From positions 1-63,028 of the IMG/VR virus record IMGVR_UViG_3300048625_000378: 63,028 nt of DNA. One strand, given 5' to 3'. Every line of letters starts with the position of its first letter. Position 1 is the stretch's first letter. Position numbers and translations under genes: made by a program. Source of the DNA: a virus. Shown here in pieces: positions 2,808 to 62,780 of the stretch. Below the pieces are notes generated by a model that made no database searches, was not told where the DNA came from, and saw nothing but the letters and a program-made list of their open reading frames with translations.

Positions 2808-2812
2808 TTATT

Positions 2813-3322: not shown

Positions 3323-3332
3323 AAATTAAAAT

Positions 3333-4262: not shown

Positions 4263-4266
4263 AAAA

Positions 4267-4743: not shown

Positions 4744-4747
4744 AATC

Positions 4748-5170: not shown

Positions 5171-5192
5171 AACAACTATTTTTTTACTTAAT

Positions 5193-5236
5193 AATATGTG
5201 TTTTTTGTGTTTTATTAAGCATAAAAAGCACATATT
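5193..5236 (+). promoter_or_regulatory. Inverted repeat with TATGTGTTTTTT arms
   Basis: AATATGTGTTTTTT (5193-5206) is repeated inverted as AAAAAGCACATATT (5223-5236) with one mismatch, separated by 16 bases. It lies in the only sizeable gap of the early operon, before the small gene at 5262. The arm matches a TATGTGT-plus-T-run motif found in other intergenic regions of this window (near 40.44, 54.51 and 55.53 kb). It could be an operator or an RNA hairpin; no TAnnTTTG box is seen inside it. Confidence 0.45.
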
Positions 5237-5261
5237 TCAATAATAACATTAAACTAAAAAT

Positions 5262-5381
5262 ATGGCAGAAGATAAAAAATCATTCGTCTTAAACAAAGAA
5301 TGGATTGGGGTAATTCAAGAAATTAATAAAGTTCAATGTCATCGTGAAACTCATAAAATAACTAGAAATGGCCAGACCTGA
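5262..5381 (+). CDS. Small hypothetical protein (39 aa)
   Basis: A short frame beginning with ATG at 5262, reading MAEDKKSFVLNKEWIGVIQE at its N terminus and overlapping the following DUF4373 gene by 14 bases. The overlap pattern equals that of neighbouring genes in this operon, which is the main support. No function can be proposed. Confidence 0.45.
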   Translation: MAEDKKSFVLNKEWIGVIQEINKVQCHRETHKITRNGQT

Positions 5382-6207: not shown

Positions 6208-7021
6208 AATTGCAAAATCAACAGAAGTCATAAATACGGAATTTTTAAAATCATGTTACGGATTTAAAAAAATACGTGCCAGAGAAACTGAAATCAATTT
6301 CAATAATGTAGTAGGCCTTATGATAACTAAAATTTCTGCACTGGCCGGTATTAATAACGAAATTGATATGGCTACAAAATCCGACCTGCTTCGTTATGTT
6401 AAAACCAGATGCAAAGATATTACGTTAGAAGAAATCTATAAAGCTTTTGAATTAGAGAGATATAATGAATATCCAACAAAATCAAATCATTTTCAATTAT
6501 TTGGGACAGAATATTTTTCAGAAGTAATTAAAAAATATCGAGTGTGGAAGTTAGAAAACCAAACGTATTATAATATTTCTAAAAATGAGAATAATTTAAA
6601 AATTTCAGCTATTACAGAATCACAAAAAGAAGAAATACTAATCAATGGGATTAAACGTGTTTTTAACGAGTATAAGCAATTAAAAACACTTTCAGAACCC
6701 TGCGTTCATATTTTTGACGAACTCCTTTCTAGAGGCTTAATTTTAGGTGCTGTAAATCCTAAATTTGAAAAATACTATTCCGATAAAAGCGAACAGGCTA
6801 AAATTGAACTTGAAAAAGAACTTGAAGTTCAAAAATCAAACTCAAATTTTATCCAAAGAAAAAACATCGAAAGAGATATTGAAAAAATACTACAAGGTAA
6901 TTCTAATAAAATTATTGTCAAGACCAAGAAAATTGTATTAAAAGAGTACTTCGACAATTTAATTTTAAAAGAAATTGAAATAGAAGTGGAACTTAAAAAA
7001 TCAAATACATGTTTGAAATAA
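6122..7021 (+). CDS. Hypothetical protein, possible replication accessory
   Basis: A 299-residue mostly helical protein with a Lys/Glu-rich C-terminal third. It starts inside the DUF4373 gene (86-base overlap from 6122; a second ATG at 6179 shortens the overlap to 29 bases, and either may be used). It ends inside the next gene. I do not recognise the family. Its placement between the DUF4373 and DnaA-domain genes suggests a replication-linked role, but no ATPase or nuclease motif is visible. Confidence 0.6.
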   Translation: MEHDNNHYSVDKAQIQSDLMHLAGTTLNEIAKSTEVINTEFLKSCYGFKKIRARETEINFNNVVGLMITKISALAGINNEIDMATKSDLLRYVKTRCKDITLEEIYKAFELERYNEYPTKSNHFQLFGTEYFSEVIKKYRVWKLENQTYYNISKNENNLKISAITESQKEEILINGIKRVFNEYKQLKTLSEPCVHIFDELLSRGLILGAVNPKFEKYYSDKSEQAKIELEKELEVQKSNSNFIQRKNIERDIEKILQGNSNKIIVKTKKIVLKEYFDNLILKEIEIEVELKKSNTCLK

Positions 7022-7614
7022 CAAAAATTATCGCGTTGGTTTTTCAAGTTGATCATCAGAAACTATTTGAAAAAACCAGGAAACGAAATATAGTTGAAGC
7101 TAGACAGGCAGCGATGTATATTTCCTATAAAAAAATTCAAGGTATTACGCTATCTAAAATCGGTGATTTTTTTAATAAAGATCACTCTACGGTTATGTAC
7201 GCTATAAAGATGGTTGAAAACCTATATGATTCGGACAAGTCTTTTAAAAGTAAAGTAAATGAATCTATGGTAAAGTTTAATATGTTGAAATCAAATAAAA
7301 TCGTTTACATAGCGCACCCGGTTTCGAATGACTTAAATACTAACGTTGAAAAAATTCTTCAAATCGTAAAGAAAATCAATCTTGAAGAAAAAAATACAAC
7401 TCCGTTCGTCCCTTATTTAGCTGACATTTTAGCATTAGACGATTCTATACCAGAACATAGAAACAAAGGAATTAGTAATAACACAGCGTATTTAAAATCA
7501 GGAATCGTTTCTGAACTTCGAGTATATGGTGATTTTATATCCAAAGGAGTGGCAGAAGAAATAGCTATAGCTAGAGAATTTAAGATTCCGGTGATTTATA
7601 AAAACAAAAGCTAA
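7009..7614 (+). CDS. DnaA domain IV fused to a deoxyribosyltransferase-like domain
   Basis: Residues 20-75 read like DnaA domain IV: VEARQAAMYI at 29-38 and the signature DHSTVMYAI at 58-66, which in DnaA recognises origin boxes. From about residue 97 a second domain begins: IAHPVS at 101-106, a later PFVPYLADILALDD, and GDFISKGVAEEIAIAREF near the C terminus. This is the pattern of the DUF4406/nucleoside 2-deoxyribosyltransferase-like fold. There is no DnaA ATPase domain. The first part probably binds DNA, possibly DnaA-type boxes; the second may act on nucleotides. Each part is recognisable; the joint role is unknown. Confidence 0.75.
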   Translation: MFEITKIIALVFQVDHQKLFEKTRKRNIVEARQAAMYISYKKIQGITLSKIGDFFNKDHSTVMYAIKMVENLYDSDKSFKSKVNESMVKFNMLKSNKIVYIAHPVSNDLNTNVEKILQIVKKINLEEKNTTPFVPYLADILALDDSIPEHRNKGISNNTAYLKSGIVSELRVYGDFISKGVAEEIAIAREFKIPVIYKNKS

Positions 7615-7616
7615 TT

Positions 7617-7889
7617 ATGATAAATATAAAAGAACTAACCGTATGCTCATTATTCGATGGAATGAGCTGCTTACAAATAGCCTTGAACCGAATAGGTTTG
7701 AAACCTACAAAATACTATGCCAGCGAAATTGACAAATATGCAATACAAGTTACCATGGCAAATTTTCATAAAACTATTCAATTGGGTGACGTTAGAAACG
7801 TAAAAGGTTCAGATTTAGGATTTATTGATATTCTAGTGGGGGGAGTCCTTGTCAATCATTTTCATTCGCTGGAAAACGCAAAGGAATGA
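7617..7889 (+). CDS. C5 cytosine methyltransferase, N-terminal part (frameshifted)
   Basis: The frame encodes the start of a C5-cytosine DNA methyltransferase: motif I SLFDGMSCLQIAL (residues 11-23), motif II around YASEID, and IDILVGG leading into motif IV. After the run of six G at 7838-7843 this frame reads VLVNHF and stops at 7889. The expected GSPCQSFSFAGKRKG is in the -1 frame. The catalytic Cys is therefore encoded only if the ribosome shifts or the base count differs. Alone the 90-residue product would be inactive. Confidence 0.8.
   Translation: MINIKELTVCSLFDGMSCLQIALNRIGLKPTKYYASEIDKYAIQVTMANFHKTIQLGDVRNVKGSDLGFIDILVGGVLVNHFHSLENAKE
7838..7844 (+). other. Possible -1 frameshift slippery site G GGG GGA
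   Basis: The heptamer GGGGGGA is in the phase X XXY YYZ relative to the upstream methyltransferase frame (codons GTG GGG GGA). A -1 slip here joins 7617-7843 to the downstream frame and restores the continuous motif GGSPCQSFSF. The same join would result if the tract had one more G. A true regulatory frameshift, phase variation and a simple indel all remain possible. Confidence 0.5.
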
Positions 7890-9160
7890 GCACAAAAGAT
7901 AACATCGAGATTTTAACACTCGATCATTACTTAGAATTGAAAAACCAAAACTTTGAATTTGAGGGACAGTCTTATTTGTTTTGGGAATACATGAGAATTT
8001 TACATGAACTAAAGGAAATAAACCCAAATATAAAGTTCTTACTCGAAAATGTAATCATGGGTGAGAAATGGGAAAATATTTTAACTAGGGCAATAGGTAT
8101 AAAACCAATTCGTATCAATTCTGCTTTAGTTTCAGCTCAAAATAGAAATCGTTTGTATTGGACTAATATTTATACTGAACCTGATGGATTTTTTGGAGAT
8201 TTGGTTTGCAAAATTCCACAACCAAAAGACAAAGGAATTTTACTTAAAGATATTTTGGAAGGCGAAGTTGACGAAAAGTATTTTTTGAGTGATAAAATGT
8301 TGGATTGGTTAAATAGACACTCTGAAAAAACAGGAAATAAAGTTAGAAAAATCCAAGATGAATTAAAAACTTACCCACTAACTTCTTTCGGTGCTTCAAG
8401 AAATAATTTAGATTCAAATTATATTGAAACCAACAGAAAAGCACGTTGTTTTACTGCTGGTGGAAATAGTGGGGGCTTACATTCTCAAATGGATTTAGTG
8501 GTCCATAACACAATGCCAAGAAGTTCAAAAACTGGTAAAGGCGGTACCGGCCCATTGTCCCGAACTGATGGAAAAACCTATTGTTTAGATACGGGTAATA
8601 CAAATGCAGTAGAAATTCAATGTGTTGCAATGCGTGGACGAAATCCTGAAAATCCAAAAAGCCGTGTTGCTGGATTAGAAACCGAGCAACAACTTGAACC
8701 AAGAAATGATGGTAAAACGAATTACTTAACTAGTGTTCAAAAAGACAATTTGGTAATGCAAATAAATCCATCAAAAGAATCAGAAGGAGTTCAACCATAT
8801 CAACATAATAGAGTTTATGATATTGAAGGAATATCTCCTTGCCTAAATACTGACACAAGAAGCCCGGCTGTTGAAATAAAAAGCGGCACTTTGCGAACGC
8901 ATAACGACGGAAAAGGTTTTAGAGAAGTTGTAATCGGTAAAGGAGCAACTATTCCAGCAAGATCTAGAGAGGATGGAAGTGGTCAAAATGTAGTTTCTGT
9001 TTCTGGAAATATCCGACGACTAACACCGACAGAGTGCGAACGTTTACAGACGGTTGATGATGGATATACTGCTCACGTTTCAGATTCACAACGTTACAAG
9101 ATGCTCGGAAATGGGTGGACAATTGATGTGATAGGACATATACTCTCTTATTACAATTAA
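7886..9160 (+). CDS. C5 cytosine methyltransferase, catalytic C-terminal part
   Basis: The frame continues the methyltransferase. Reading back from 7886 in this frame gives SPCQSFSFAGKRKG with the catalytic Cys. Downstream come motif VI (FLLENV), motif VIII (QNRNRLYWTN), a roughly 200-residue target-recognition region with several DGK/NDGK-type repeats, and motifs IX-X (RRLTPTECERLQ, then YKMLGNGW). The merged product (7617-9160 with a -1 shift) would be 514 residues, a normal size. It would methylate cytosine in a specific DNA site, probably to protect phage DNA. The ATG at 7886 lies after the catalytic motif, so independent translation would give no active enzyme. Confidence 0.82.
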   Translation: MSTKDNIEILTLDHYLELKNQNFEFEGQSYLFWEYMRILHELKEINPNIKFLLENVIMGEKWENILTRAIGIKPIRINSALVSAQNRNRLYWTNIYTEPDGFFGDLVCKIPQPKDKGILLKDILEGEVDEKYFLSDKMLDWLNRHSEKTGNKVRKIQDELKTYPLTSFGASRNNLDSNYIETNRKARCFTAGGNSGGLHSQMDLVVHNTMPRSSKTGKGGTGPLSRTDGKTYCLDTGNTNAVEIQCVAMRGRNPENPKSRVAGLETEQQLEPRNDGKTNYLTSVQKDNLVMQINPSKESEGVQPYQHNRVYDIEGISPCLNTDTRSPAVEIKSGTLRTHNDGKGFREVVIGKGATIPARSREDGSGQNVVSVSGNIRRLTPTECERLQTVDDGYTAHVSDSQRYKMLGNGWTIDVIGHILSYYN

Positions 9161-9164
9161 AGTA

Positions 9165-9392
9165 ATGATCCCTCGCATTGAAAACTGCTATTTCTACAGC
9201 AGAGAAAGCAATATAATTTATGCTAATCTGGTTGACGGAGAGAAAGTACCATTAATCAGATTAAAGCAAAAATTCATAGATATTACGATACTTGGTGGTC
9301 AATCTTTTGACTACATGAATAGGTATTTAGAAATGTTCCCTAACCTATGGGAGCCAGTTCAGGAAGAACAAAAACAATTATCACTTTTTTAA
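9165..9392 (+). CDS. Small protein ending in a sliding-clamp-binding motif
   Basis: A 75-residue protein with a compact predicted fold (MIPRIENCYFYSRESNIIYA) and the C-terminal sequence EEQKQLSLF. QL(S/D)LF is the consensus pentapeptide by which bacterial proteins bind the DNA polymerase III beta clamp, and a free C-terminal location is typical. The protein may hitch a ride on, or block, the host clamp. The body of the protein is unrecognised, so the role is inferred from the tail alone. Confidence 0.6.
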   Translation: MIPRIENCYFYSRESNIIYANLVDGEKVPLIRLKQKFIDITILGGQSFDYMNRYLEMFPNLWEPVQEEQKQLSLF

Positions 9393-9412
9393 AAACATAA
9401 AACAAAATTACT

Positions 9413-9826
9413 ATGATACTAGGATTTAAAACACAATTTGTAGAAAAAATACTTAATGGAAGTAAAATACACACCATTAGAGTTGACAAGGATAAAAGAT
9501 GGCAAAAAGGTAAAAAGATAAATTTTGCTACTGGAGTAAGAACAAAGAATTACTCTGAATTTAAAAAAGGATTTTGTAAATGGAATCAAGCGGTAGAATT
9601 AAGACCTGACACAAGGGAAATTTACCTTGGATTGAATGGAAAAATGAATCTGTTAGACAAAAAGCACAATGAAATGTTTGCTAAAAATGATGGGTTCAAT
9701 ACAGAAGACGAATTTTGGGAGTGGTTTAACGAACCTTTTTATGGGGTTGTTATTCACTGGACCGATTTCATTTATTCACAATGTTTAACAACACGATGTT
9801 TTACATATAAAATCAAATTACTATGA
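9413..9826 (+). CDS. ASCH/PUA-like domain protein
   Basis: The N terminus reads FVEKILNGSKIHTIRVDKDK and is followed by RWQKGKKINF, the typical opening of ASCH-domain proteins, a PUA-like fold that binds RNA or modified nucleotides. The later DGFNTEDEFWEWFNE segment is also common in phage ASCH proteins. In this family the conserved Lys and Arg around the K-x-H-T-I-R motif line the binding pocket. It ends 4 bases inside the next gene. Confidence 0.65.
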   Translation: MILGFKTQFVEKILNGSKIHTIRVDKDKRWQKGKKINFATGVRTKNYSEFKKGFCKWNQAVELRPDTREIYLGLNGKMNLLDKKHNEMFAKNDGFNTEDEFWEWFNEPFYGVVIHWTDFIYSQCLTTRCFTYKIKLL

Positions 9827-10362
9827 AAAATAAAAATTATCCTCATTTTGAAGGAGGTATTGAGCTGTCTAAGGAAATGTTAGTTTATTTTATTGGTGAA
9901 AAATTACCAATGAAAGTAAAAGCAGTAAGTAAAAATTTTGCTATATGCACAAGAAAATTGAATAGACGTCAAGATGCAGATTTACTTCATAGACAAGTTG
10001 AAACAGGCGCTTATATTTCTTTTACTGAAGCGTATAATGATCAAAAAAGCGAAGTGATTTATACGATTGTTGATTTTAAACAGAATATTAGAGGTGCTCA
10101 TAATTTGGTATTAGGAGGTTGTGATTTTAAAGATGAAAAAGAAATTGAAGATTTTATTGCTGAATTAGAAAGTGGAGAAGTTGAAATTTCATATAGAAAT
10201 AGATGTAATTATAATCTAGATTTTGAGAGAACTCTTAAAAATAAGGTTTCAAAAGCAACTAATAATTTATCCAATTCTTTTAAAAAACTTGGAAAAGTAG
10301 CAAAATCGGCAACAAAAAATTTTGGGAAAGTAGATCAATATTTAAAACCTAAAAACCAATGA
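9823..10362 (+). CDS. Hypothetical protein
   Basis: A 179-residue protein. The N-terminal half contains FAICTRKLNRRQDADLLHRQ and YTIVDFKQNIRGAHNLVLGG, a pattern I associate with uncharacterised phage proteins. The C-terminal 45 residues are Lys/Ser/Asn-rich (KLGKVAKSATKNFGKV) and probably helical and nucleic-acid-binding. Overlapping starts on both sides place it in the same operon. No function assigned. Confidence 0.55.
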   Translation: MKNKNYPHFEGGIELSKEMLVYFIGEKLPMKVKAVSKNFAICTRKLNRRQDADLLHRQVETGAYISFTEAYNDQKSEVIYTIVDFKQNIRGAHNLVLGGCDFKDEKEIEDFIAELESGEVEISYRNRCNYNLDFERTLKNKVSKATNNLSNSFKKLGKVAKSATKNFGKVDQYLKPKNQ

Positions 10363-10562
10363 AACAAATACTAGACCTTTTAAAAGAAATCGACGATGCC
10401 AATCCTGAAAATAAACTTTGCAGCATTAAATTCTATCAGGATGGAAGCGGAGTTATTTATAACGAAGAAACAGAAATAGCTGGATTCGATACTTGCGAAG
10501 AAGCTGTCGCCCAATTAACGGATGTTCTAAACATTCTCTTAAATCAAAAAGCTAATGCGTAA
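10359..10562 (+). CDS. Small hypothetical protein (67 aa)
   Basis: An acidic 67-residue protein that overlaps the genes before and after by 4 and 8 bases. The segment CSIKFYQDGSGVIYNEETEI looks like a small beta sheet. No recognised family. Confidence 0.5.
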   Translation: MKQILDLLKEIDDANPENKLCSIKFYQDGSGVIYNEETEIAGFDTCEEAVAQLTDVLNILLNQKANA

Positions 10563-12499: not shown

Positions 12500-12937
12500 A
12501 TGAAACTAATTAAAATGACCGACTTCGTGTTGGCTGAAAAACTAACGTTAAACATTAAGGGATATGAAAAAGAATTCATTTCCAATGTGTCAAATTATGC
12601 CAAATTCTTAAAACAACCACTTGAACTAGGAATGTTTGTTCCAGTAGATGAAGATGGTAGGGTTTTGAATGAACCTGAATATTATGATTTATGGAAGGTA
12701 GGGATAGCGCCTAATGATTCTCAAGATGAAATTTGCTTCAAATACCAAAAAGCTAAGGAAAAGGTTTTGTTTGAGGGGTTTAGACCTATTGGAGAAAGAC
12801 ATGTAGGAGCAGGAGATATAGTAATTGGACTGGGCTACAAAAATGGAATTCATCAAACCATTGAAGATTTAGTAATGTATCATAAATCTAAATATTTAAT
12901 ATTAACCGAATCAGCAATTAAACAATTAGGACTGTGA
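12500..12937 (+). CDS. Hypothetical protein
   Basis: A 145-residue protein beginning MKLIKMTDFVLAEKLTLNIK, with a region of paired acidic and aromatic residues in the middle and a C terminus HKSKYLILTESAIKQLGL. I recognise the style from Bacteroidota phages but no function. The start follows the previous stop by 2 bases, and the stop overlaps the next GTG start. Confidence 0.5.
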   Translation: MKLIKMTDFVLAEKLTLNIKGYEKEFISNVSNYAKFLKQPLELGMFVPVDEDGRVLNEPEYYDLWKVGIAPNDSQDEICFKYQKAKEKVLFEGFRPIGERHVGAGDIVIGLGYKNGIHQTIEDLVMYHKSKYLILTESAIKQLGL

Positions 12938-13344
12938 GAGCACAAGAATTAAGAATTAGAAATTTAGTTGAATGCTTCGGAACAAGAGAAGTAGTTACTA
13001 TTAAAAAGAATAAAATAAAAGTACAACACGAATCAAAAAAAGGGCATTTTATTATTGAATGGGTTCCTATCGATTCATTATCACTAAAACCAATCCCATT
13101 AACAGAAGAATGGTTGTTGAAGTTTGGGTTTTATAAAACAACTGAAAATGCCGGTAATTTAATTTGCTATAAAAAAGGAAAATATACAATAGCAAAGTGG
13201 ATTAATGATAAGTGGCAATTTTGGATTAGCACTATTGATTTATATAATTCTCCACAATACGTTCACCAACTTCAAAATCTATATTTCTCACTAACTGGGG
13301 AAGAATTAATAATTAAAGCGGTACCCGAAAAGCTAATAGAGTAG
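12934..13344 (+). CDS. Hypothetical protein with conserved LTEEWL...YVHQLQNLYF pattern
   Basis: It starts with GTG at 12934, overlapping the previous stop. The protein opens with RAQELRIRNLVEC and has PIPLTEEWLLKFGFYK in the middle and YVHQLQNLYFSLTGEELI near the end. This set recurs in many Bacteroidota prophages and phages, where it is uncharacterised. It is probably a two-domain beta-plus-helical protein. Confidence 0.55.
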   Translation: MRAQELRIRNLVECFGTREVVTIKKNKIKVQHESKKGHFIIEWVPIDSLSLKPIPLTEEWLLKFGFYKTTENAGNLICYKKGKYTIAKWINDKWQFWISTIDLYNSPQYVHQLQNLYFSLTGEELIIKAVPEKLIE

Positions 13345-13368
13345 GGAATAATTAAATATTTTTACATT

Positions 13369-42872: not shown

Positions 42873-45515
42873 TTATTCAAAAAGAGTATCATTTAACGTT
42901 CTTTTTTCGTGGCTCCAAGTCGTGTCCGCAATGCTATTCATGTCGTTTTGCGATATATTCGCAGTAGCCTTAGACCATAGCGCCGCATGTACATCAATAC
43001 CATTGGCATTGCGCACCATAACCTGATTGCCAGCTACTCCGCTAGCATCTTCAATGTATAGCGGTAGTGTGATGTATAGCGATGGCGTATTGGTGTTATT
43101 TAGATTAGATTTTGCTCTTCCTTTAAAAAATGCCGAATACACTCTAAAACCACCATCAATAAGCTGAACGCTTCCAACAGTATTAGCAAGCAATGAAAGC
43201 GCTGCAAAATTCCCACCATTCGATACGATAAAATAGTGCATTGCATTCAACACTTCGGCAGGTGTATAGTTCGCCAAATCAGTGTCTACTTCAACATACA
43301 ACAATGAATTATCTACAATAGACGAAAAATATCCAGCTACTGTGTTTCTAGTGGTGGCATCCAAAGCTGTGTCGACCAAAGTCTCTGGAATGTGTGTAAT
43401 TACTAGGCTCGAAGCTGTAGCCGATGTATTGGTGATTTTTGATTGGTAGCCGTAGGCTTGGCTATATACACGCAGGCTTCCTCCTACAGGCATATAGACT
43501 GTCTTTGATTGAATTAGGCTTTGGAATCCTGTGTCCTCTACAATATTTCCAGCTCCATTGTATACCCAAATCTGCGTTGAAAATAGATTGTTACCCGCAT
43601 CCGTAATCGTGATAGGATATTGTGCCACAACACGCGTACCTGTGTTTACACTTGAGTTAACGAGATTCAGCTTCACGTTTCCAGTTCCTGCGTTGCTAAC
43701 TGTTCCTGAAATAGTACAATTGGTCAATGTAACTACTATATCGGTGTTGGTATTGTAGACTAGATTGCCGCCAATGACTACATTAGATAAGTTAGTTGGC
43801 GTTGCTTGACTTATGTTACCACTTATGGTTAGGTTAGCAAGAGTGCCGTTGGCGGTTGCAGTTCCAGTCGAAGCAATAGAAGTAAGCTTAGTTCCTGCTG
43901 TTAGTTTCTCAACCCCTGTTACCGGAATAGAACCAAAACCCATCTCTTTTCCGTTTGCCGAAAAAGGATTAACAACCGACATATTAGCTTCAAGGTAGGC
44001 TTTTGTAATATCCCAACATCTATCAATAGTCATTGCTGCATTGATAGTCATCGCCGTGATTGCATTCGCAACAACTGTGAATGTTATATCTGAAAGGTTC
44101 GCCGACTGGTCAGTTGTATAATATGGGTCTGTACTCATAAACTGTGTCAGCTCCACCCCATTGATAGTCATGTCTGCTGTATATGTTGCTTCTACTAAGT
44201 CTTTTCTTCTGAATAAAAACGATTTTGCCGTATAGTTCTTGGCGTTTTGTAATGGTATATACGAACCACCACCAACTCTATTTCCATAGTATATAAGCAT
44301 TTGTTTGTTTACCACTCCAGAAACCATTGTATCAAGAGAGGCTTGAGAGTTATCAGATGTGTTGACTGTTCTAATTTTCACGCCAGAAAGTAGACTAGAA
44401 CCTTGTTTTGCGGTAATGTTGACAAGCCGTGTAAAATAACCCGAGAAGCCGTCAAAATAAGCCTTAATTTGCGTTGCGAAATTAAATCCAACAGGTACAA
44501 CTAAATCCTCAAAGAACTGAAAGCTATCACTACCAATAAAACCTATACCTCTTGAATTATCTGAAGGTATATCGGGTGTATATTTCGATAATGCTCTGTA
44601 TGATTTCGTTGTGGCAGACCCTGCAATAGTACCATTTGCCGTGGCAGTTATCACATCACCTATTGAAGGTATAACGGTAAGTGTGTTGAATAGTGTTTGC
44701 CAGTTTGCAAGAGTGGCAGTGCCAAGCGATGCTACTATATACTTTGTACCTGACATAACAGTACTACTTGCAGATGCCGTTGCAACACCGATTTTATTGT
44801 CAACAAAGTTGCCTTCATAAAGCCCTGAATGTGTCAAGCCTATGAGGTTCGTTGGGTTTACAGTTAGATTTGTACGTATGGCAGATATATTACTCTTGGT
44901 AATGAGAGGCGCGTCTATTAACTGATTTTCGGCATAGGTTAACAAGCAGTTGTTTATACTTCCGGTCATCGTTTGAGACGTAAATAACACCCCTTTATTC
45001 GCCCCTACAGGAGAAGCAAATCTATTGTTATTCCAGTTTACAACCCCAGTTGTGCCTATAAGGACATTAGTTCCACCAGCTGCAAGCCCAGAACCTGTAT
45101 ATATAACCGTGAATCCGATGTTATTTTTTTGGTTTAGCGCAGAACCGCTAATCCAGTCACAGCCAGTTCCAGCATAGACAAGTCCCGAGGCGCAATAATA
45201 TGACCAGTTATCATCAAGGTATGCAGCAGAAATAGTAATTCCAACTTCAAGCCAGATATTATTACTTCCTTGAATATATGCAAGTGGAGCCCAGTTAGCA
45301 GAGCTAAAAGCACCTGCAACAGTAACCACAGTTGTGCAGCGATAGAGAGCAAGCCCGAGACCACCACCAGCATTGTATTTCATTATAGCACCAACGGCGT
45401 ATGTTGAGCCTGTCGAAAAAGCCGTAGCATCATTGATGATGTTGTTAGGCGTCAGTCTTGAGCCTGATGTGCCTCCTGTGAGTGTAAGTGTGTTAGAAGC
45501 GTATGATATTGCCAT
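42873..45515 (-). CDS. Tail fibre / receptor-binding protein
   Basis: An 880-residue protein of repetitive beta structure, poor in charged residues and rich in Thr, Asn, Gly and Ser (SNVVIGGNLVYNTNTDIVVT, TNCTISGTVSNAGTGNVKLN). These resemble stacked parallel beta-helix rungs. The N terminus, YASNTLTLTGGTSGSRLTPN, is a typical tail-anchored start. Composition is less AT-rich than its neighbours (many GC-rich third positions), which suggests transfer from another phage. It lies at the end of the fibre cluster, just before lysis genes. Confidence 0.65.
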   Translation of the reverse strand: MAISYASNTLTLTGGTSGSRLTPNNIINDATAFSTGSTYAVGAIMKYNAGGGLGLALYRCTTVVTVAGAFSSANWAPLAYIQGSNNIWLEVGITISAAYLDDNWSYYCASGLVYAGTGCDWISGSALNQKNNIGFTVIYTGSGLAAGGTNVLIGTTGVVNWNNNRFASPVGANKGVLFTSQTMTGSINNCLLTYAENQLIDAPLITKSNISAIRTNLTVNPTNLIGLTHSGLYEGNFVDNKIGVATASASSTVMSGTKYIVASLGTATLANWQTLFNTLTVIPSIGDVITATANGTIAGSATTKSYRALSKYTPDIPSDNSRGIGFIGSDSFQFFEDLVVPVGFNFATQIKAYFDGFSGYFTRLVNITAKQGSSLLSGVKIRTVNTSDNSQASLDTMVSGVVNKQMLIYYGNRVGGGSYIPLQNAKNYTAKSFLFRRKDLVEATYTADMTINGVELTQFMSTDPYYTTDQSANLSDITFTVVANAITAMTINAAMTIDRCWDITKAYLEANMSVVNPFSANGKEMGFGSIPVTGVEKLTAGTKLTSIASTGTATANGTLANLTISGNISQATPTNLSNVVIGGNLVYNTNTDIVVTLTNCTISGTVSNAGTGNVKLNLVNSSVNTGTRVVAQYPITITDAGNNLFSTQIWVYNGAGNIVEDTGFQSLIQSKTVYMPVGGSLRVYSQAYGYQSKITNTSATASSLVITHIPETLVDTALDATTRNTVAGYFSSIVDNSLLYVEVDTDLANYTPAEVLNAMHYFIVSNGGNFAALSLLANTVGSVQLIDGGFRVYSAFFKGRAKSNLNNTNTPSLYITLPLYIEDASGVAGNQVMVRNANGIDVHAALWSKATANISQNDMNSIADTTWSHEKRTLNDTLFE

Positions 45516-45516
45516 C

Positions 45517-45816
45517 TTACAATATTATTTTTTTGGTTGCCGTAAGCCCCGTTAGTAATCCGTTATTGAATGTAGTATAGAAACTATCTTCGCTTTTATC
45601 GTTTGCAATGAATCGATAGCGAATACCTCCACCTGGATAGGTGTATTTTGCCACTCTACCCGTAGCAATGTCTGGCAGTTTTTCAATCGACAAAAAGCCT
45701 GAAACTAGCGTAAACCAGTTTTCTTTATTGGCTTTTTTGTCAATAGAAATTGCCATTGCTTTCATTAAAGAAGCGATGTGACTGATAACCGACGATATTC
45801 TAGTTTCTAAACTCAT
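45517..45816 (-). CDS. Small fibre-associated protein
   Basis: A 99-residue protein 1 base after the gene upstream and 1 base before the fibre gene. It begins with a helix (LETRISSVISHIASLMKAMA) and ends in beta strands (VAKYTYPGGGIRYRFIANDK). It may be an adaptor or chaperone for the fibre. Confidence 0.45.
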   Translation of the reverse strand: MSLETRISSVISHIASLMKAMAISIDKKANKENWFTLVSGFLSIEKLPDIATGRVAKYTYPGGGIRYRFIANDKSEDSFYTTFNNGLLTGLTATKKIIL

Positions 45817-45817
45817 T

Positions 45818-46324
45818 TCAGCTTAAATAAGCAGTGTTAAAATCAGCTACAAAGTCTCTATCTGTATTACCAATGTTGGTAGCCAAAGTGGCTAAATCAG
45901 TTGCCGATGCAGCGCCAATGTTTGTTCTGGCCTGTGCTTTTTGCACGTCCGTGAAAGACTGTGCCAATGCAACCGAAACTAAACCAGTATCGGTTTGTGC
46001 CAAAGCCACAATCTTATCGGCTAATTCTTTTAGCGTATCAGCATCAGAACTAGCTCCATTTATCAAATTAGCCACTGCCGTAGTAATTAACGAAGTGATT
46101 TTGGTAGAACTATATGTTTTGTTTAAGGCTGGAGTGGCATCATCAATTACCGAGCTTGGCGCTGGCAAAGCGTTGATATTCGACTTCAACTCATTTAGAG
46201 CTGCAACAATGTTTGTTTTATCAATAGTCGATAAATTAGCTATGTTGCCAATCTTTGCATTTACTGCTTTAATAGTGTTAGCCGCTTGAACTGCTAAGGC
46301 TACTATTCTTTCTTCATGTGTCAT
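45818..46324 (-). CDS. Fibre-associated helical protein
   Basis: A 168-residue Ala/Thr/Asn-rich helical protein (LAVQAANTIKAVNAKIGNIA), including a segment DDATPALNKTYSSTKITSLI that is common in phage tail-fibre stems, and a C terminus IGNTDRDFVADFNTAYLS. That end is shared with the next protein upstream (GNYERDFAQDFLIALNT). It is probably a fibre stalk or adaptor. Confidence 0.5.
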   Translation of the reverse strand: MTHEERIVALAVQAANTIKAVNAKIGNIANLSTIDKTNIVAALNELKSNINALPAPSSVIDDATPALNKTYSSTKITSLITTAVANLINGASSDADTLKELADKIVALAQTDTGLVSVALAQSFTDVQKAQARTNIGAASATDLATLATNIGNTDRDFVADFNTAYLS

Positions 46325-46329
46325 AATTC

Positions 46330-46551
46330 CTAAGTATTAAGTGCTATTAAAAAATCTTGTGCAAAATCACGCTCATAGTTTCCTAGAATGGATAGATCAG
46401 CATTTTTGCCAGGCAACCCTTGTTTACCTAATGTTGACATTTCCACTACGATATCCACTTTATTAGAAGATACTACTACTTCGAACTGCTTAGGATTAGA
46501 AGTAAGCTGAACGTCTATTTTTTTAATGGTTTGATTGATTACTACTTCCAT
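46330..46551 (-). CDS. Small fibre-linked protein with collagen-like turn
   Basis: The ATG at 46551 follows the upstream stop by 5 bases and is preferred to 46575. The 73-residue protein has beta strands (VDIVVEMSTLGKQGLPGKNA), with one collagen-like GKQGLPGKN stretch, and the C-terminal GNYERDFAQDFLIAL motif also seen downstream. It may form the base of a fibre. Confidence 0.45.
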   Translation of the reverse strand: MEVVINQTIKKIDVQLTSNPKQFEVVVSSNKVDIVVEMSTLGKQGLPGKNADLSILGNYERDFAQDFLIALNT

Positions 46552-46556
46552 TTTTC

Positions 46557-46922
46557 TTAATCTGTTATGTTCCAAAAAATCTTTGGAAAAGGGTAATTTG
46601 TGCCGTCAGGATAATAAATCTTGATTTCAAACGTATAGTCATAAGCCGGAAGATTGATTATACGTGGCAGAAAACTAATAATGTTAGTTGCTGTCGGATG
46701 TTCAGTATCGCCCATCACGATAGCACCATTATCCGTTGACATTTCCAAAGCTGTCGAGCCTAGGCGACCTTTAATTAGCTTACCTACCGCTTCAATAGCG
46801 CTTACATCCATAGGCGTCTTAACATTGCCTTCTTCTTTATTTGAAAAAGCCAACGATATACCATCCCAAGTAGTTCCTTTCTTATGGTCCGGAAGTCTTA
46901 ATTCATCGTTTCCGCAAATCAT
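46557..46922 (-). CDS. Hypothetical protein of fibre cluster
   Basis: A 121-residue beta-rich protein beginning ICGNDELRLPDHKKGTTWDG and containing GDTEHPTATNIISFLPRI and YDYTFEIKIYYPDGTNYPFP. It sits between two fibre proteins. No family recognised; a baseplate- or fibre-adaptor role is inferred from place. Confidence 0.45.
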   Translation of the reverse strand: MICGNDELRLPDHKKGTTWDGISLAFSNKEEGNVKTPMDVSAIEAVGKLIKGRLGSTALEMSTDNGAIVMGDTEHPTATNIISFLPRIINLPAYDYTFEIKIYYPDGTNYPFPKIFWNITD

Positions 46923-46923
46923 T

Positions 46924-48429
46924 TTACTTTGCTTTTAAAAGTTCGACCTCAGTTTCTAAAGCACTAATTTTTTGATTCAATTCTTTTATTGCATTAATTA
47001 AAATATATGTAATTGCATGAGAATTAAAATTATAAAGCACAGTATCTGAAGTGTCTGTTGTATTCAATTTAGCCGAAAACGTAGATACTCCTTCAGGGAC
47101 TATGTTTTGAACTTCTTGAGCAATCACGCCGATGTTTCCTTTTATTTTGGAAAAACCAGCCTTACCGTTATAATCATACGTTACCGGTCTTATAGAAAGA
47201 ATAGCACTCAAGCCTTTCGTGTAATTTTGGATATTTTCCTTTAAACGGGAATCTGATGCAATTGTCCATGTATTAGTGGAAGGTTTAGCGGCAGAATCTA
47301 GTTGGAGTTGAAATAAATAGCTTGGGATAAATACACCGGTTTCAGACGAAGATATTCCAACCCCAACACTAGCGTCCCATATATGTCCTCTTTCCAACAT
47401 TTTCGAACTTGTAAACCTTGGTACTGCGTAGGTAGAGTTATGGGTATATTTTGATAAAACTAATTCACCGACAGTTTCACCAATATTTGGAACAACCAAT
47501 GTTTTATAGTCTTGGATATCCCCATAGTACAAATTAATTTGTTTAGTTACTGAACTACCAAATGATAGCGTATTAGTCTGTGTAGATATGGTAGTAGCTC
47601 CCTCAGAATAAATTGGTAAGTAAGAACTTCCAACAATTGATAGTTGACTATTAAACACACCGCTAGAATAAGGAGTCGTGGTTCCATTAGCTAAAAGATA
47701 ATTTGTACCACCAGAAGCTACTTTAAAACCACTCGCGGTTATGTTTCCTGTAAAAGTTGGAGAAGCTATTGGCGCTTTCAAATTCAAAGCGGATTGTGTT
47801 GCTGTTGAAATAGGTTTGTTCAAATCTGAAGTGTTATCTACATTACTTAAGCCTACATCTGATTTACTAACGACAGTACTACCTATTCTAATATCAATAC
47901 TTCCGGCAGTTCCAACAGCCGTTACAACGCCTAAACTAATACCATAACTAGGAGAAGAAGGCTTTGTAGCCGTAACAGTGCCTGCTGTAGCATCCGACAA
48001 ATAAAGAATTGAGTTTTCAAAAAAACTAGCCGTATTGAAGCCTGTAAATGTACCTGATGTAACTACATTTCCATCAGTATTATTAGGAATATCATTTTCT
48101 ACAATACCAAGTGTAGTCTCGCTCATGAACTTAACCGATGCAAGTGCCTTAGCTACTAATAATTTACCCCCTGACACTCCGCTTTGGTACACCACCGTTC
48201 CTTTAGTTAAAGTTGAGCCTGTTTGGTTGCGAACTATTTTGGTGGTTTTTATCGATTGGGAAATCGTAGTTTTATCTACATACCCAACCTCACCAGTTGT
48301 AGCATCTTGAACCATTACACGTGTAGCAGCCGTTTTTTCAGGATTTGCTGATATTTTAAGTTTTGTAACCCCTGTTGTCTGAGCGAAAGAAATTGCTGTG
48401 AATAGCAATAATAAAAAGTACTTTTTCAT
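46924..48429 (-). CDS. Tail fibre with S74 intramolecular chaperone and signal-like N terminus
   Basis: A 501-residue protein. The C-terminal ~110 residues are a peptidase-S74 (endosialidase-type) chaperone: SDSRLKENIQNYTKGLSAIL with the Ser-Lys catalytic pair, then GNIGVIAQEVQNIVPEGV and a final coiled coil (LNQKISALETEVELLKA). This domain trimerises the fibre and cuts itself off before the Ser. The N terminus, KKYFLLLLFTAISFAQ, looks like a Sec signal peptide, which is odd for a virion protein and suggests origin from a secreted bacterial protein. Repeated beta elements fill the middle. Confidence 0.75.
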   Translation of the reverse strand: MKKYFLLLLFTAISFAQTTGVTKLKISANPEKTAATRVMVQDATTGEVGYVDKTTISQSIKTTKIVRNQTGSTLTKGTVVYQSGVSGGKLLVAKALASVKFMSETTLGIVENDIPNNTDGNVVTSGTFTGFNTASFFENSILYLSDATAGTVTATKPSSPSYGISLGVVTAVGTAGSIDIRIGSTVVSKSDVGLSNVDNTSDLNKPISTATQSALNLKAPIASPTFTGNITASGFKVASGGTNYLLANGTTTPYSSGVFNSQLSIVGSSYLPIYSEGATTISTQTNTLSFGSSVTKQINLYYGDIQDYKTLVVPNIGETVGELVLSKYTHNSTYAVPRFTSSKMLERGHIWDASVGVGISSSETGVFIPSYLFQLQLDSAAKPSTNTWTIASDSRLKENIQNYTKGLSAILSIRPVTYDYNGKAGFSKIKGNIGVIAQEVQNIVPEGVSTFSAKLNTTDTSDTVLYNFNSHAITYILINAIKELNQKISALETEVELLKAK

Positions 48430-48445
48430 GTTTGTATAATTAAGT

Positions 48446-49198
48446 TTAAGTTCCTATTTCTGTAAATTGTAAAACCGTATAATTTGCCCTGTCACTTCGG
48501 TTTCCTCCATTCCAAATTGCCTTATCCCAATAAACTCCTGTATTTGTATCTGAATCCCAAGTTCCCCAACCCTCTACAAAATCACCTGGTTGATCCGTTC
48601 CTGTAGTATTGCCTCCTCCACGAGCGATAATTCGAAGCTCCATGAATGAAATTGGAGTAGGTGTTAAATTATTCGATATAAATTCTAGTCCTAATAAATA
48701 CTTCGTCTTGTCTATAAAATTTCCATTTGATAAATAATTATTTAAAGCAATATCAATACTAAAAGTTCTGCCGTTTTCTGATAACAAAAAATTTGAAGGG
48801 GTGATAAATACGAAGTTATCTTTGTTTTGAAAATTCGTAAGTTTAAAAAGGAATTGTCCGCTATTTATAATTGTTTGTATGTATATCCCTATCTCAAAAC
48901 CGTAAGAATCTTTATAGCTGAAAACTAATTTTTTAGCTTGTTGAAAATTAGTAGTTATATTACCGTTAATATCATTTGCATAAAAATATCCAAATCGATT
49001 TTCAATAGATTGGTTGTGTTGTGATATAAATAAAAATGCATTATACCCTAAGAAATTATTAAAAAGCGAGAATATGCCTCCTAGTGCAAATGTTTTTGTT
49101 TTCTTGCCCGGCGAATTGCTATCGGTCCCTATCAAAAAATCTTCCATTGACAGGCTATCATCTTGACCAAATATCTCTTTATTACTTATTTGTGGCAT
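48446..49198 (-). CDS. Tail/fibre adaptor protein
   Basis: A 250-residue protein, first gene of the late block. The N terminus (NKEIFGQDDSLSMEDFLIGT, then SPGKKTKTFALGGIFSLFNNF) recurs at the start of flavobacterial tail proteins; the C terminus is Gly/Asn/Trp-rich (GDFVEGWGTWDSDTNTGVYW). It is probably exposed on the tail. Divergent promoters lie upstream. Confidence 0.5.
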   Translation of the reverse strand: MPQISNKEIFGQDDSLSMEDFLIGTDSNSPGKKTKTFALGGIFSLFNNFLGYNAFLFISQHNQSIENRFGYFYANDINGNITTNFQQAKKLVFSYKDSYGFEIGIYIQTIINSGQFLFKLTNFQNKDNFVFITPSNFLLSENGRTFSIDIALNNYLSNGNFIDKTKYLLGLEFISNNLTPTPISFMELRIIARGGGNTTGTDQPGDFVEGWGTWDSDTNTGVYWDKAIWNGGNRSDRANYTVLQFTEIGT

Positions 49199-53430: not shown

Positions 53431-53578
53431 TGGCTAAGATAGGATTCGAACCTATAAATCTTAGTACTAGAATATACCAATCTAGAAGAGTGTTTTAGTT
53501 TATTCTATTTTTGGTAAATAAGAATAAATTTTAGACATAAATGCCACCCTTTACGTCTACCAATTCCGCCACTTAGCC
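53431..53578 (-). tRNA. tRNA-Leu-like gene with insertion
   Basis: Perfect 7-bp acceptor strands GGCTAAG and CTTAGCC, a Leu/Ser-type D arm (GCGGAATTGGTAGACGT) and a normal T arm (ATAGG-TTCGAAT-CCTAT) enclose 148 bases, about 60 more than a tRNA-Leu. The excess follows the D arm and contains a strong hairpin, TTTATTC...TATTT/AAATA...GAATAAA. No convincing anticodon arm could be placed (a TGGTA/TACTA stem with an 8-base loop is the best). It may be an intron-bearing tRNA, a decoy or a pseudogene. Confidence 0.5.
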
Positions 53579-57193: not shown

Positions 57194-57673
57194 ATGGCAA
57201 ACTGGTGTACGAACTGGGTAATTTTTTCGGGAGAAGAAACCCAAATAAAAAAAGCAAATGCAATGTTTAAAACAATGCAAGAAAAAGAAAAAGAAACGAA
57301 CGAGGGGCAAATACCGTCATTTATGGCAGAACCTAAAGAAGGATTTTTCTTTGAAATTTATGAAGACGAAAGCGAAATTATAAGTTACTCTACAAAGTGG
57401 TCGCCAAACATTAACGACTTGATAGAAATTGCAAATCATTTTAAATTAGGCTTCGAGGTTCTTTATGAAGAAATTGGAAATCAAATTTTTGGTAAAGCGA
57501 TTTTTACGGCTGGAAATTCAGAAGCTAAAAAATACGACCTAGCAAGCGAAGATTTTGAAGAATGCCAATACGATGAAGATGCAGACATCTATAAATACAA
57601 CGGCGAAGAATACGAATCTGACAGCGAAATTTTACAAACCATTTTTCAAAAAAAATTTAATTTCAGTTATTAA
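57194..57673 (+). CDS. YubB ferredoxin-like domain protein (DUF1281-type)
   Basis: A 159-residue protein with the family signature MANWCTNWVIFSGEE at the N terminus and alternating strands and helices expected of the YubB ferredoxin-like fold (ISYSTKWSPNINDLIEIANH). The acidic tail EDADIYKYNGEEYESDSEIL is extra. Members occur on plasmids and phages; no biochemical role is established. Confidence 0.65.
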   Translation: MANWCTNWVIFSGEETQIKKANAMFKTMQEKEKETNEGQIPSFMAEPKEGFFFEIYEDESEIISYSTKWSPNINDLIEIANHFKLGFEVLYEEIGNQIFGKAIFTAGNSEAKKYDLASEDFEECQYDEDADIYKYNGEEYESDSEILQTIFQKKFNFSY

Positions 57674-58149: not shown

Positions 58150-58368
58150 ATGAAACCAAAAACATCAATTAAAGCAACAAAAATAGGAGCGGGGCAATTC
58201 AAAATTTCAGTAATGCGGGATTGGGAAGATATAGGCTCTTTTATTGAAAACACTCACATTGACGACATTCAAGAGATGATACAAGAAGGATTTGAATCAA
58301 ATTTATCCCACTTTGAAACTTTTGAAGAAGTCGAAAACTATTGTATCACTAAAGCAAAAAAATCATAA
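58150..58368 (+). CDS. Small hypothetical protein (72 aa)
   Basis: The ATG at 58150 is chosen because an earlier in-frame codon at 58057 lies inside the previous gene. The product (MKPKTSIKATKIGAGQFKIS, then DIQEMIQEGFESNLSHFETF) is a compact alpha/beta-like protein with no recognised family. Confidence 0.5.
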   Translation: MKPKTSIKATKIGAGQFKISVMRDWEDIGSFIENTHIDDIQEMIQEGFESNLSHFETFEEVENYCITKAKKS

Positions 58369-58385
58369 AAAAATCATATTATGTT

Positions 58386-58414
58386 TTGAAATATGATTTT
58401 TATGTGTACATTTG
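58386..58414 (+). promoter_or_regulatory. Consensus promoter of pseudoknot RNA
   Basis: TTG at 58386-58388 and TACATTTG at 58407-58414, spacer 18 bases: one of the best Bacteroidota-type promoters in the window. The -33 element lies in the loop of a hairpin (AAATCATATT...AAATATGATTT) that could end the upstream transcript. Nothing but noncoding sequence follows for over 500 bases. Confidence 0.68.
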
Positions 58415-58419
58415 CTGTA

Positions 58420-58530
58420 ATCAATCTGGGCGGAATCAGATTTGATTATCTGATAAAGCACCAGAATTGATGTAAAAAGATACCCTTAATCAAGTCACTC
58501 CGCCCGACAAGATTAAGGGATTTTCTTTTT
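58420..58530 (+). ncRNA. Pseudoknot-capable noncoding RNA
   Basis: After the promoter come four mutually interlocked elements: GGGCGGA (58428-58434) pairs with TCCGCCC (58499-58505); ATCAGAT-TTGATT-ATCTGAT (58435-58454) is a hairpin inside; CCCTTAATC (58483-58491) pairs with GATTAAGGG (58511-58519), crossing the first helix. The order A-B-A'-B' is an H-type pseudoknot. The last stem is followed by ATTTTCTTTTT and can act as a terminator. No open reading frame. The RNA would be about 110 bases. Confidence 0.62.
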
Positions 58531-58926
58531 ATAAGACTTTCCAAACAAGTTTTACCTCTTAACTGAAAAATAAGAACCGTATATAAAAGTGATTTTGTAG
58601 TAGGCGGCGGAGTAATCCAAAAAGTAAAATCTAATGCTGTTAATAAATCTCGCAATGAGTTAGCTTCTCAACGAGTGTTGCAATCCGAAAGGTAATAAAA
58701 ACAGTAAACGACAAACCCATAATCGAAAGATTGAAGTAAATAAGAAATTGGGGCAACTCGGAAGTATAGATTTTTTCGCTTGATAACTAATTTAAGGGTA
58801 GTTATAAATGTTGTCATTTCCCACTAGGGGGTATTGCAACATAAAAGCTTCGCTATGTAATAACATTAAAAAAATATTATTACTTAAATAAAAAAATTTA
58901 TATTTGTTTCATAAAAAGTAATCCCA
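58531..58926 (+). other. Noncoding stretch with further hairpins
   Basis: Nearly 400 bases without a credible gene. Small stems with GAAA loops are readable (CC-GAAA-GG near 58688, AATC-GAAA-GATT near 58722), and GGCGGAGT (58606-58613) can pair with ACTCCGCC (58497-58504) of the upstream RNA. This would compete with the pseudoknot. A larger structured RNA or a leader of the 58927 gene is possible. Confidence 0.4.
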
Positions 58927-59580
58927 ATGATTGAACTATTTGAAACAGCGTTAAAATCTCCTGCTGGAAGTTTTGCTTTTGTATTGTCTTTTCTGGCAGT
59001 TACTTATTTAGTTATATGGAAAGTATCGCATTTTACAACCAAATTTAACTCAGTTGAAAAAATGGAAAATGCAATAGAGAGCATAAAAGGAGATATTCAT
59101 TCGATAAAAGCATCTATTCAATACAATTCGGACCTGATTAAGCTAAATTCAGATTCAATTAAATTAGTAAGCGATTCTATTAAATCAATTACCGATTTGA
59201 ACAACCCGTTTGCTCAAAGACAAAGCCCTGTTTCTATGACCGATAAAGGGAAAGAGGTTTCAGACGAAATAAAATTAAATGAAATTATCGCAACCCACTG
59301 GGAAAAAATTAACACCCAATTAAACGATATTTTAAATTCTGACTGTAACCCTTACGACATACAAGTAGAGAGTTTTAAAATAGGGGAGCAATACCAACAC
59401 TTCTTAAGTTCTGAAGAATTAAAAGCAGTAAAAAATCACGCTTTTAAATCTGGATTCAATTTAGAAGTTTATAACCTACTCTTTGGAATAGCAATAAGAG
59501 ATAAGTATTTATCTATTAAAGGAATTGATAAGTCTGACATTGATCTTTACGACCCGATTAGCAAATCTAAAAATAGCTAA
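58927..59580 (+). CDS. Membrane-anchored coiled-coil protein
   Basis: A 217-residue protein with an N-terminal membrane segment (FAFVLSFLAVTYLVIW) and a following coiled coil with 7-residue periodicity (NSDLIKLNSDSIKLVSDSIK). The C-terminal 100 residues are helical and charged, with FKSGFNLEVYNLLFGIAI. It might be a defence or exclusion factor, since it lies in accessory DNA with a terminator of its own, but there is no family match that I recognise. Confidence 0.5.
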   Translation: MIELFETALKSPAGSFAFVLSFLAVTYLVIWKVSHFTTKFNSVEKMENAIESIKGDIHSIKASIQYNSDLIKLNSDSIKLVSDSIKSITDLNNPFAQRQSPVSMTDKGKEVSDEIKLNEIIATHWEKINTQLNDILNSDCNPYDIQVESFKIGEQYQHFLSSEELKAVKNHAFKSGFNLEVYNLLFGIAIRDKYLSIKGIDKSDIDLYDPISKSKNS

Positions 59581-60986: not shown

Positions 60987-61634
60987 ATGAACTCTTTAAT
61001 TAACATTACCACAAATAATCAAGGATTGAGTGTGGTAAGCGCTAGAGATTTGCACGAGTTTTTAGAAATAAAAACAGATTTTTCAAATTGGTGTAAACGT
61101 ATGTTTGAGTATGGTTTTGAAGAAGGAAAAGACTTTACGCCAATTTTGGCGAAAAGTATAGGAGGCAGACCTTCAGTAGATTACGCTTTAACTATCGACA
61201 CATCAAAAGAAATTTCGATGATCCAGCGTTCAGACAAAGGTAAAGAAGCTCGTATGTATTTTATCGAGTGTGAGAAAATTGCAAAAGAATCTAAAAAAGT
61301 ACTAACTCCAGCAGAACAGCTTTTTGAAAATGCCAGATTGCTTTTAGAAATAGACCGCAAACAAAAAGAAACCGAAAAGCGTATAGAGGTTTTAGAAGCT
61401 AAAACTACAACTAGACCCGACTATTTTACGATAGTTGGATTTGCTAATCTAAACGGGGTTAATTGTGGCTTAAAATTAGCCTCTAGGCTCGGAAGGATTT
61501 GCAAAGCAGAAGCTAAAAGACTTGGGGTAAAATTAGACACGTTGCCCGACCCTCGTTTTGGAATGGTCAATCTATATCCAACCGAGCTTTTGCGAAAAAC
61601 TTTTATAGAAGAAAACCTAATTAACAATATTTAA
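60987..61634 (+). CDS. AntA/AntB-family antirepressor
   Basis: A 215-residue protein. Residues 10-95 match the AntA/AntB domain (VVSARDLHEFLEIKTDFSNW, then YGFEEGKDFTPILAKSIGGR, and IQRSDKGKEARMYFIECEK). The C-terminal part (FANLNGVNCGLKLASRLGRI) is a second DNA- or repressor-binding region. Antirepressors of this type inactivate prophage repressors and trigger lytic growth, so a temperate history is likely. A matching repressor is not visible in the window. Confidence 0.78.
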   Translation: MNSLINITTNNQGLSVVSARDLHEFLEIKTDFSNWCKRMFEYGFEEGKDFTPILAKSIGGRPSVDYALTIDTSKEISMIQRSDKGKEARMYFIECEKIAKESKKVLTPAEQLFENARLLLEIDRKQKETEKRIEVLEAKTTTRPDYFTIVGFANLNGVNCGLKLASRLGRICKAEAKRLGVKLDTLPDPRFGMVNLYPTELLRKTFIEENLINNI

Positions 61635-61874: not shown

Positions 61875-62780
61875 ATGAAAATCGAAAACAAAGTTTTATT
61901 AGCATTCAATGAGAATGACGTAAAAAATGGAGTATTAACTATTCCTAATTCAGTAACTAAAATTGCTGATGAATTATTTGTAAACATTGACTACGTAGAA
62001 AAAGTAGTTGGTAAAAAAGTTACGGCTATTGGAAACTACAATTTCTACGAATGCAACGCCCTGACTTCGGTGGAGTTCCCATTGGTTACGGCTATTGGAA
62101 ACTACAATTTCTACGAATGCAACGCCCTGACTTCGGTGGAGTTCCCATTGGTTACGGCTATTGGAAACGAGAATTTCCGTTACTGCAACGCCCTGACTTC
62201 GGTGGAGTTCCCATTGGTTACGGCTATTGGAAACGAGAATTTCCGTTACTGCAACGCCCTGACTTCGGTGGAGTTCCCATTGGTTACGGCTATTGGAAAC
62301 GAGAATTTCCGTTACTGCAACGCCCTGACTTCGGTGGAGTTCAAAAACAAAAAACTAACTGTAAAATCAATTGATGGTTATTTATTTGTTATTGAAAGCA
62401 AAAAAACCACTAAAGGAATTATTTTATATGTAGGTTATAATTTATACTCATTCAACAAAAACGAAGTAGAGAAAAAAGATTGTTTTGTCGCCGAAAAAGA
62501 TGGATTTTTTGCACATGGAGACAATGTTAAAAAAGCTATTTCGGACGTGCAATTTAAAATCGTTGCCGAAAAATTAAAGAAAGAGCCAATACTTGCGGAT
62601 ACAATGATTTCCGTTATGTATTACAGAACAATCACTGGAGCTTGTGAATTAGGCTGTAGAGATTTTATCGAAAGAAATTCTTTAGAAAAAGAGGAGTATA
62701 GAGCGGATGAATTACTGCCTATTTTGGAGAAAAACGACGCTTATGGTGTAGAAAAATTTAAAAGGTTAATCAAATTTTAA
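61875..62780 (+). CDS. Leucine-rich repeat (LRR_5/BspA-like) protein
   Basis: A 301-residue protein whose residues 49-157 are five almost identical 22-residue repeats (consensus VTAIGNENFRYCNALTSVEF plus PL), the BspA/LRR_5 type, capped by an N-terminal segment (DVKNGVLTIPNSVTKIADEL). LRR_5 proteins often bind other proteins or surfaces. The C-terminal 130 residues are mixed alpha/beta, ending VEKFKRLIKF. No signal peptide, so it probably acts in the cell. Confidence 0.75.
   Translation: MKIENKVLLAFNENDVKNGVLTIPNSVTKIADELFVNIDYVEKVVGKKVTAIGNYNFYECNALTSVEFPLVTAIGNYNFYECNALTSVEFPLVTAIGNENFRYCNALTSVEFPLVTAIGNENFRYCNALTSVEFPLVTAIGNENFRYCNALTSVEFKNKKLTVKSIDGYLFVIESKKTTKGIILYVGYNLYSFNKNEVEKKDCFVAEKDGFFAHGDNVKKAISDVQFKIVAEKLKKEPILADTMISVMYYRTITGACELGCRDFIERNSLEKEEYRADELLPILEKNDAYGVEKFKRLIKF
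62019..62342 (+). repeat. 66-bp tandem repeat in LRR gene
   Basis: Five units start at 62019, 62085, 62151, 62217 and 62283 (the last is 60 bases). Units 1-2 share TACAATTTCTACGAA and units 3-5 GAGAATTTCCGTTAC in the variable part; the rest is identical. DNA identity at synonymous sites indicates recent expansion or continuing recombination. Confidence 0.9.

Follow-up and report, generated by a model that had tools for sequence, protein, structure and literature searches.

The DNA analysed here, called the window, is the whole 63,028-nt stretch of a virus record, and the question raised by its right side, beyond a series of small unknown genes, is whether a structured RNA is encoded there and what such an RNA would do. 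A first-pass annotation had proposed a promoter-driven H-type pseudoknot RNA of unknown class at this locus. Comparison with related phages makes it almost certain that a conserved pseudoknotted RNA exists.

The predicted RNA gene of ∼112 nt runs from its inferred start to the end of a U-tract (58419–58531); it and all of its parts described below are on the + strand. Its architecture is that of a first hairpin, made up of the helix P1, an internal loop and the hairpin P2, followed by the terminator hairpin P3, the loop of which pairs back into the internal loop. P1 is a 10-bp helix that encloses the internal loop and P2, and its strands are ATCAATCTGG (58420–58429) and the partner CCAG(A)ATTGAT (58461–58471). 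P2 (58435–58454) has 7 bp (58435–58441/58448–58454) and the hexaloop TTGATT (58442–58447). P3 (58483–58519) consists of a 9-bp helix of CCCTTAATC (58483–58491) with GATTAAGGG (58511–58519), an AA/AA internal loop, the short helix GTC/GAC and the loop ACTCCGCCC, and is followed by the T-rich U-tract of the intrinsic terminator (58520–58531). The pseudoknot is formed by GGGCGGA in the internal loop (58428–58434) and TCCGCCC in the terminator loop (58499–58505), and this 7-bp helix crosses the 9-bp helix of P3. The two perfect crossing helices, the 7-bp hairpin between them and the T-rich tract were found exactly where the first-pass annotation had placed them. P1 had been missed, and the supposed H-type pseudoknot is more exactly a pairing of an internal loop with a terminator loop. 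Two or three G residues are claimed by both P1 and the pseudoknot, among them the first two G of the pseudoknot 5′ strand: five pseudoknot pairs are free of conflict and two compete with P1, so the full 7-bp pseudoknot and the full P1 are mutually exclusive. The changed pseudoknot base C13 is also able to pair with the co-varying nested-fold base in column 40.

These pairings had been regarded as unlikely by chance, which does not hold for the two helices alone. Six pairs of crossing helices appeared in 3 of 40 dinucleotide shuffles of the whole window; by themselves, crossing helices are only moderately rare and not convincing. The claim does hold for the whole nested fold, with a free energy of −41.6 kcal/mol vs. 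−19.1 ± 3.3 kcal/mol in shuffles (z = −6.8), a value reached in 0 of 200 shuffles.

We compared the locus with 31 related phage records. By blastn, the sole homolog was found in phage G007 (83% identity over 109 nt). The conserved block extends from the predicted transcription start (58419) into the U-tract, and both flanks are unrelated. In G007 a pseudoknot pair has changed from C-G to T-A and a P1 pair from A-T to G-C. A covariance model built from these two members and lacking the pseudoknot detected a third member in phage G046 (E = 3.4e-6), and a three-member model, again lacking the pseudoknot, detected a fourth in G026, the prophage record of an isolate, IMG record 2811995254_000001 (E = 3e-6). 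Since the pseudoknot was in neither model, its presence in G046 and G026 was an independent prediction, which was borne out in both: GGCTCGAC/GTCGAGCC form 8 perfect bp in G046 and GACGTAGCAAT/ATTGCTACGTC 11 perfect bp in G026. The complementarity of the terminator loop to the internal strand is thus kept in all four members; the pseudoknot helices of a member's own strands are 7, 7, 8, and 11 bp long, vs. 2–4 bp when strands of different members are mixed. Loop shuffling gave p-values of 0.012, 0.042, 0.001, and 1.5e-5 for the pseudoknots of the four members, and the nested folds of the other members had z-scores of −4.8, −6.2, and −7.6.

Over 30 pairs in the four sequences, standard pairs occupy 120 of 120 cells, and 21 of the 30 pairs have changed on both sides (note that the helix register was fitted by hand and that the count includes some 5′ residues at which P1 and the pseudoknot overlap). 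The RNAs are 112, 111, 110, and 106 nt long. P2, P3 and pseudoknot sequences drift freely among the members with pairing kept, and the hexaloop (TTGATT in three members, TTGGTT in the fourth) is the sole unpaired stretch conserved in sequence in all four. The first-pass annotation had named loss of complementarity in close relatives as evidence against the RNA; complementarity was found to be kept by compensatory changes. As judged from the sequences, this is true of both crossing helices. We concluded that a shape kept in three related phages despite the change of most letters reflects a real, apparently undescribed RNA family. A DNA-level element, such as integrase arm sites or repressor operators with RNA-like symmetry by chance, is an extremely unlikely explanation. 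ATCAA/TTGAT does occur several times in ∼75 bp of an integration/immunity region; but the compensatory changes keep the pairing and not the motif, as in P1 of G007 (ATCAG/CTGAT) and in the wholly different pseudoknots, and the promoter and U-tract set one strand polarity.

Four members of the family were found; each record gave only one full-length strong covariance-model match, and the window record contains the RNA once. Loci totaling 3.26 Mb, among them the greater part of ∼29 related phage sequences, were also scanned with pseudoknots taken into account, and the four members came out side by side between about −40 and −43 kcal/mol. The remaining AT-rich candidates were weaker; two GC-richer stretches scored −38 and −35 kcal/mol, and the rest −28 kcal/mol and above. 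The shuffled control, for which a slightly different version of the descriptor was used, reached −28 kcal/mol. Weak covariance-model matches in G010, G013, G021, and G023 proved on inspection to be ordinary terminators or coding DNA. A loose DNA pattern gave 27 matches, mostly GC-rich and due to chance, and among the matches to a second pattern only G007 was real; all six matches of an exact-pattern scan of genome contigs were chance matches. Among the 80 matches listed in another viral pattern scan only G007 and G046 were real; the family has at least the four members described here. A DNA similarity search gave no match in phages and plasmids.

The promoter had been described as excellent. 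A putative Bacteroidota promoter pair of the pattern TTTGN18TAnnTTTG is present, with the −33 element TTTG at 58385–58388 and the −7 element TACATTTG at 58407–58414. The pattern alone is weak: 3.6 occurrences are expected per window and 2 were found, so that it proves little by itself. The same −33/−7 arrangement with ∼18-nt spacing is present in G046, and G007 has a 19-nt spacing and the TTG form. Counterparts of the −7 element (TATATTTG in G007, TATCTTTG in G046, and TACATCTG in G026) lie 3–6 nt 5′ of the conserved (A)ATCA start. At the level of sequence, promoter element, start and U-tract thus occupy the same places in all members, T-runs being found at the same place in four of four. We infer that the window RNA would be transcribed from its own predicted promoter and ended by an intrinsic terminator. 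An inverted repeat followed by a T-run (AAAATCATATT...AATATGATTTTT, 58369–58401, + strand) overlaps the −33 element and is likely the terminator of the preceding gene. The ∼300 nt 3′ of the RNA terminator are somewhat GC-rich and show no conservation, local structure or convincing ORF.

The 63-kb record belongs to a tailed phage. Its terminase shares 58% identity with those of Cellulophaga phages phi18:3 and phi46:3, the former a member of Pachyviridae. The window phage is a Pachyviridae-like phage of Bacteroidota and of temperate type. The last point comes from record G001, which is 99.99% identical over window positions 1–10425 and runs 5.1 kb past the left end; a tyrosine integrase is encoded in this extension (L254, G001 43900–49050). 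The window record has no integrase, and with the G001 extension this indicates that it is probably not a complete genome. In G007, G046, and G026 the integrase gene precedes the RNA on the same strand: the distance from the integrase stop codon is ∼40 nt in G046 and ∼500 nt in G007, where a decayed HTH-like frame lies between, and in G026 the RNA comes after a 129-aa HTH-like ORF. The window RNA lies beyond the antirepressor as seen from the integrase, whose position inferred from G001 is at least 4.6 kb away; the linkage to integrase is therefore not universal. No RNA member was found near the integrase of other integrase-bearing relatives. On its 3′ side, the window RNA is followed by a 217-aa orphan gene and then by an AntA antirepressor gene (60987–61634), and G007 has a KilAC antirepressor downstream of the RNA. 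The neighboring proteins encoded at 57194–57673 and 58927–59580 had no relatives in viral contigs, and the latter had none in phages either.

Gene order bears on whether the RNA acts in cis on the downstream gene, as a riboswitch-like leader or attenuator. A pseudoknot with a terminator does resemble an expression platform, and the next large genes are co-directional with the RNA in the window and in G007. In G046 and G026, however, the RNA is followed by a gene that runs convergently toward it; a leader function is thereby excluded for these two, and the RNA is a stand-alone one. The genes that follow are also non-homologous, and 400–1000 nt of unrelated non-coding DNA come before them. The leader reading is largely refuted by gene order, and we consider it very unlikely.

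Several other features of these phage genomes were observed. The ORF at 61875–62780 contains 66-bp tandem repeats (62019–62342, + strand) encoding BspA-type leucine-rich repeats of nearly identical DNA, suggesting a recent expansion. A DUF805b RNA motif (Rfam RF02914; 44.5 bits, cut-off 35.6) at 13315–13347 (+ strand) overlaps the 3′ end of the ORF at 12934–13344. Between the tRNA-Tyr and tRNA-Met genes, a tRNA-like match of 148 nt instead of ∼75 (53431–53578, − strand; Rfam 35 bits; not called by ARAGORN) has intact acceptor and T arms and a large insertion in the middle; it may be an interrupted tRNA or simply one that carries an insertion of this size. In another phage of this group (L275, IMG/VR 3300033566_000060), contig positions 3858–4214 (− strand) match tmRNA_permuted at 65 bits (Rfam cut-off 47), and ARAGORN also calls a tmRNA* with the tag AKVITLGQPLRMAA; this element is probably a permuted tmRNA of the two-piece type, which one would not expect in a phage of Bacteroidota.

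Of the readings left for the window RNA, a regulatory role is the best. It may be a trans-acting regulatory sRNA of the lysogeny/integration module, to which we assign a probability of about 0.6; trans action is what we infer, and our confidence in any named target is well below that value. The locus is a predicted ∼110-nt sRNA gene of a temperate Bacteroidota phage with its own promoter and intrinsic terminator, and by sequence comparison the pairing of the P3 loop with the internal loop locks hairpin 1 and the terminator hairpin into one compact body. Such a body could work in either of two ways: the conserved UUGRUU hexaloop may be offered to a protein or RNA partner, or the terminator loop may leave the internal pseudoknot and pair instead with a strand of a target RNA, such as a complementary site 65–140 nt downstream on the same strand. 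In a genome-wide duplex search of each phage, the strongest matches away from the RNA locus shared no target gene.

The hexaloop might also be presented to a host or phage protein on a scaffold or decoy that the pseudoknot merely stabilizes, a decoy having been among the roles first proposed. This would agree with the hexaloop being the only unpaired stretch conserved in four of four members while P2, P3 and the pseudoknot drift with pairing kept; but the hexaloop is complementary as well to AAUCAA at the conserved 5′ end, so that a possible folding switch may explain its conservation. We regard a scaffold of this kind as unlikely.

The downstream site raises the alternative of a C4-like antisense RNA, the terminator loop of which would pair in trans with a same-strand site just downstream and silence the following early operon with its antirepressor. 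In the window, GGCGGAGT (58606–58613, + strand) is an 8-nt perfect complement of the terminator loop, a candidate target or second partner that is suggestive only. A downstream complement of the member's own loop is present in all four members (8, 6, 7, and 7 nt), three of them at nearly equal distance; among random 300-nt windows taken from the respective phage, the fractions that did as well were 0.009, 0.083, 0.027, and 0.040 (Fisher 5e-4). The AntA and KilAC antirepressor genes also lie downstream in the window and G007, respectively. The complement was first noticed by eye, however, and the test was post hoc; it therefore counts here as a lead. In terms of duplex energy the signal was weak (0.065, 0.136, 0.09, and 0.028), and the downstream region of G007 matched the loop of another member over 7 nt but its own over 6 nt. 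The antirepressor is 1.6–2.5 kb away and in two members only, G046 and G026 have no co-directional gene after the RNA, and no match to the C4 family of Rfam was obtained. A C4-like RNA is in our opinion a rather improbable reading. A more speculative version, which we consider quite doubtful, is a self-sequestering RNA whose terminator loop would be held by the internal strand and released to a near-identical strand downstream, giving phage-specific immunity with its own pairing code in each phage and a new class of riboregulator.

The trans-acting sRNA proposed here was compared with known systems. Little work has been done on small RNAs of Bacteroidota phages, and none of the papers searched was found to describe a structured RNA of this kind. 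Rfam 15 (including Flavo-1, C4, HDV-like, twister, pistol, SAM-II, and preQ1) gave no gathering-score match over 58300–58700, and at E ≤ 10 or E ≤ 1 only chance matches far below threshold, with the same result for G007, G046, and G026. A search of Flavo-1 had been advised; it and other Bacteroidota motifs are similar in size and host phylum and did not match even at E ≤ 10. The original description as unknown in class therefore stands for this stand-alone RNA with a conserved pseudoknot.

HDV-like ribozymes have the topology A-C-A′-C′ with a hairpin between C and A′ and a P3/P4 core. The RNA here shares the crossing P1/P2-type topology, but its hairpin lies between A and C and it lacks the P3/P4 core and an Rfam match; with the hairpin in the wrong place, an HDV-like topology was rejected. 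Type III toxin-antitoxin RNAs (ToxI, CptI, TenpI) are likewise small, pseudoknotted and carried on mobile DNA. They come in tandem repeats next to a toxin gene of ToxN/CptN/TenpN type, whereas the RNA here is single copy without tandem repeats and ends in its own terminator. No toxin family was found among the ten window neighbors (Pfam and PHROGs) or the ten G007 neighbors (Pfam), and the suggestion of a toxin-antitoxin RNA found no support. RydC-type sRNAs are stand-alone bacterial sRNAs that combine a pseudoknot with an intrinsic terminator, as here. The phage RNA differs in being longer, in using the terminator loop itself as the pseudoknot partner, and in being phage-borne in Bacteroidota; no sequence relation to RydC-type sRNAs was found.

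The C4 antisense RNA has its own Rfam family, and its loops are complementary to the leader of the adjacent antirepressor operon. It was described in phages P1 and P7 (PMC12197685). The RNA here resembles it as a small phage RNA of the immunity region, with an antirepressor further downstream in two members and, weakly, in the complementarity of its loop to a downstream same-strand site. It differs in its fold, in its own intrinsic terminator with a pseudoknotted loop, in the antirepressor not being adjacent, and in having no Rfam match. The family has strong covariation support, a fixed length of 106–112 nt and a location that recurs in the integration/immunity region of temperate phages. Its pseudoknot differs in sequence from member to member with pairing kept, which fits either a structural lock or a recognition code specific to each phage. 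Among the known systems, C4 of P1/P7 is the nearest in logic, as distinct from a family match.
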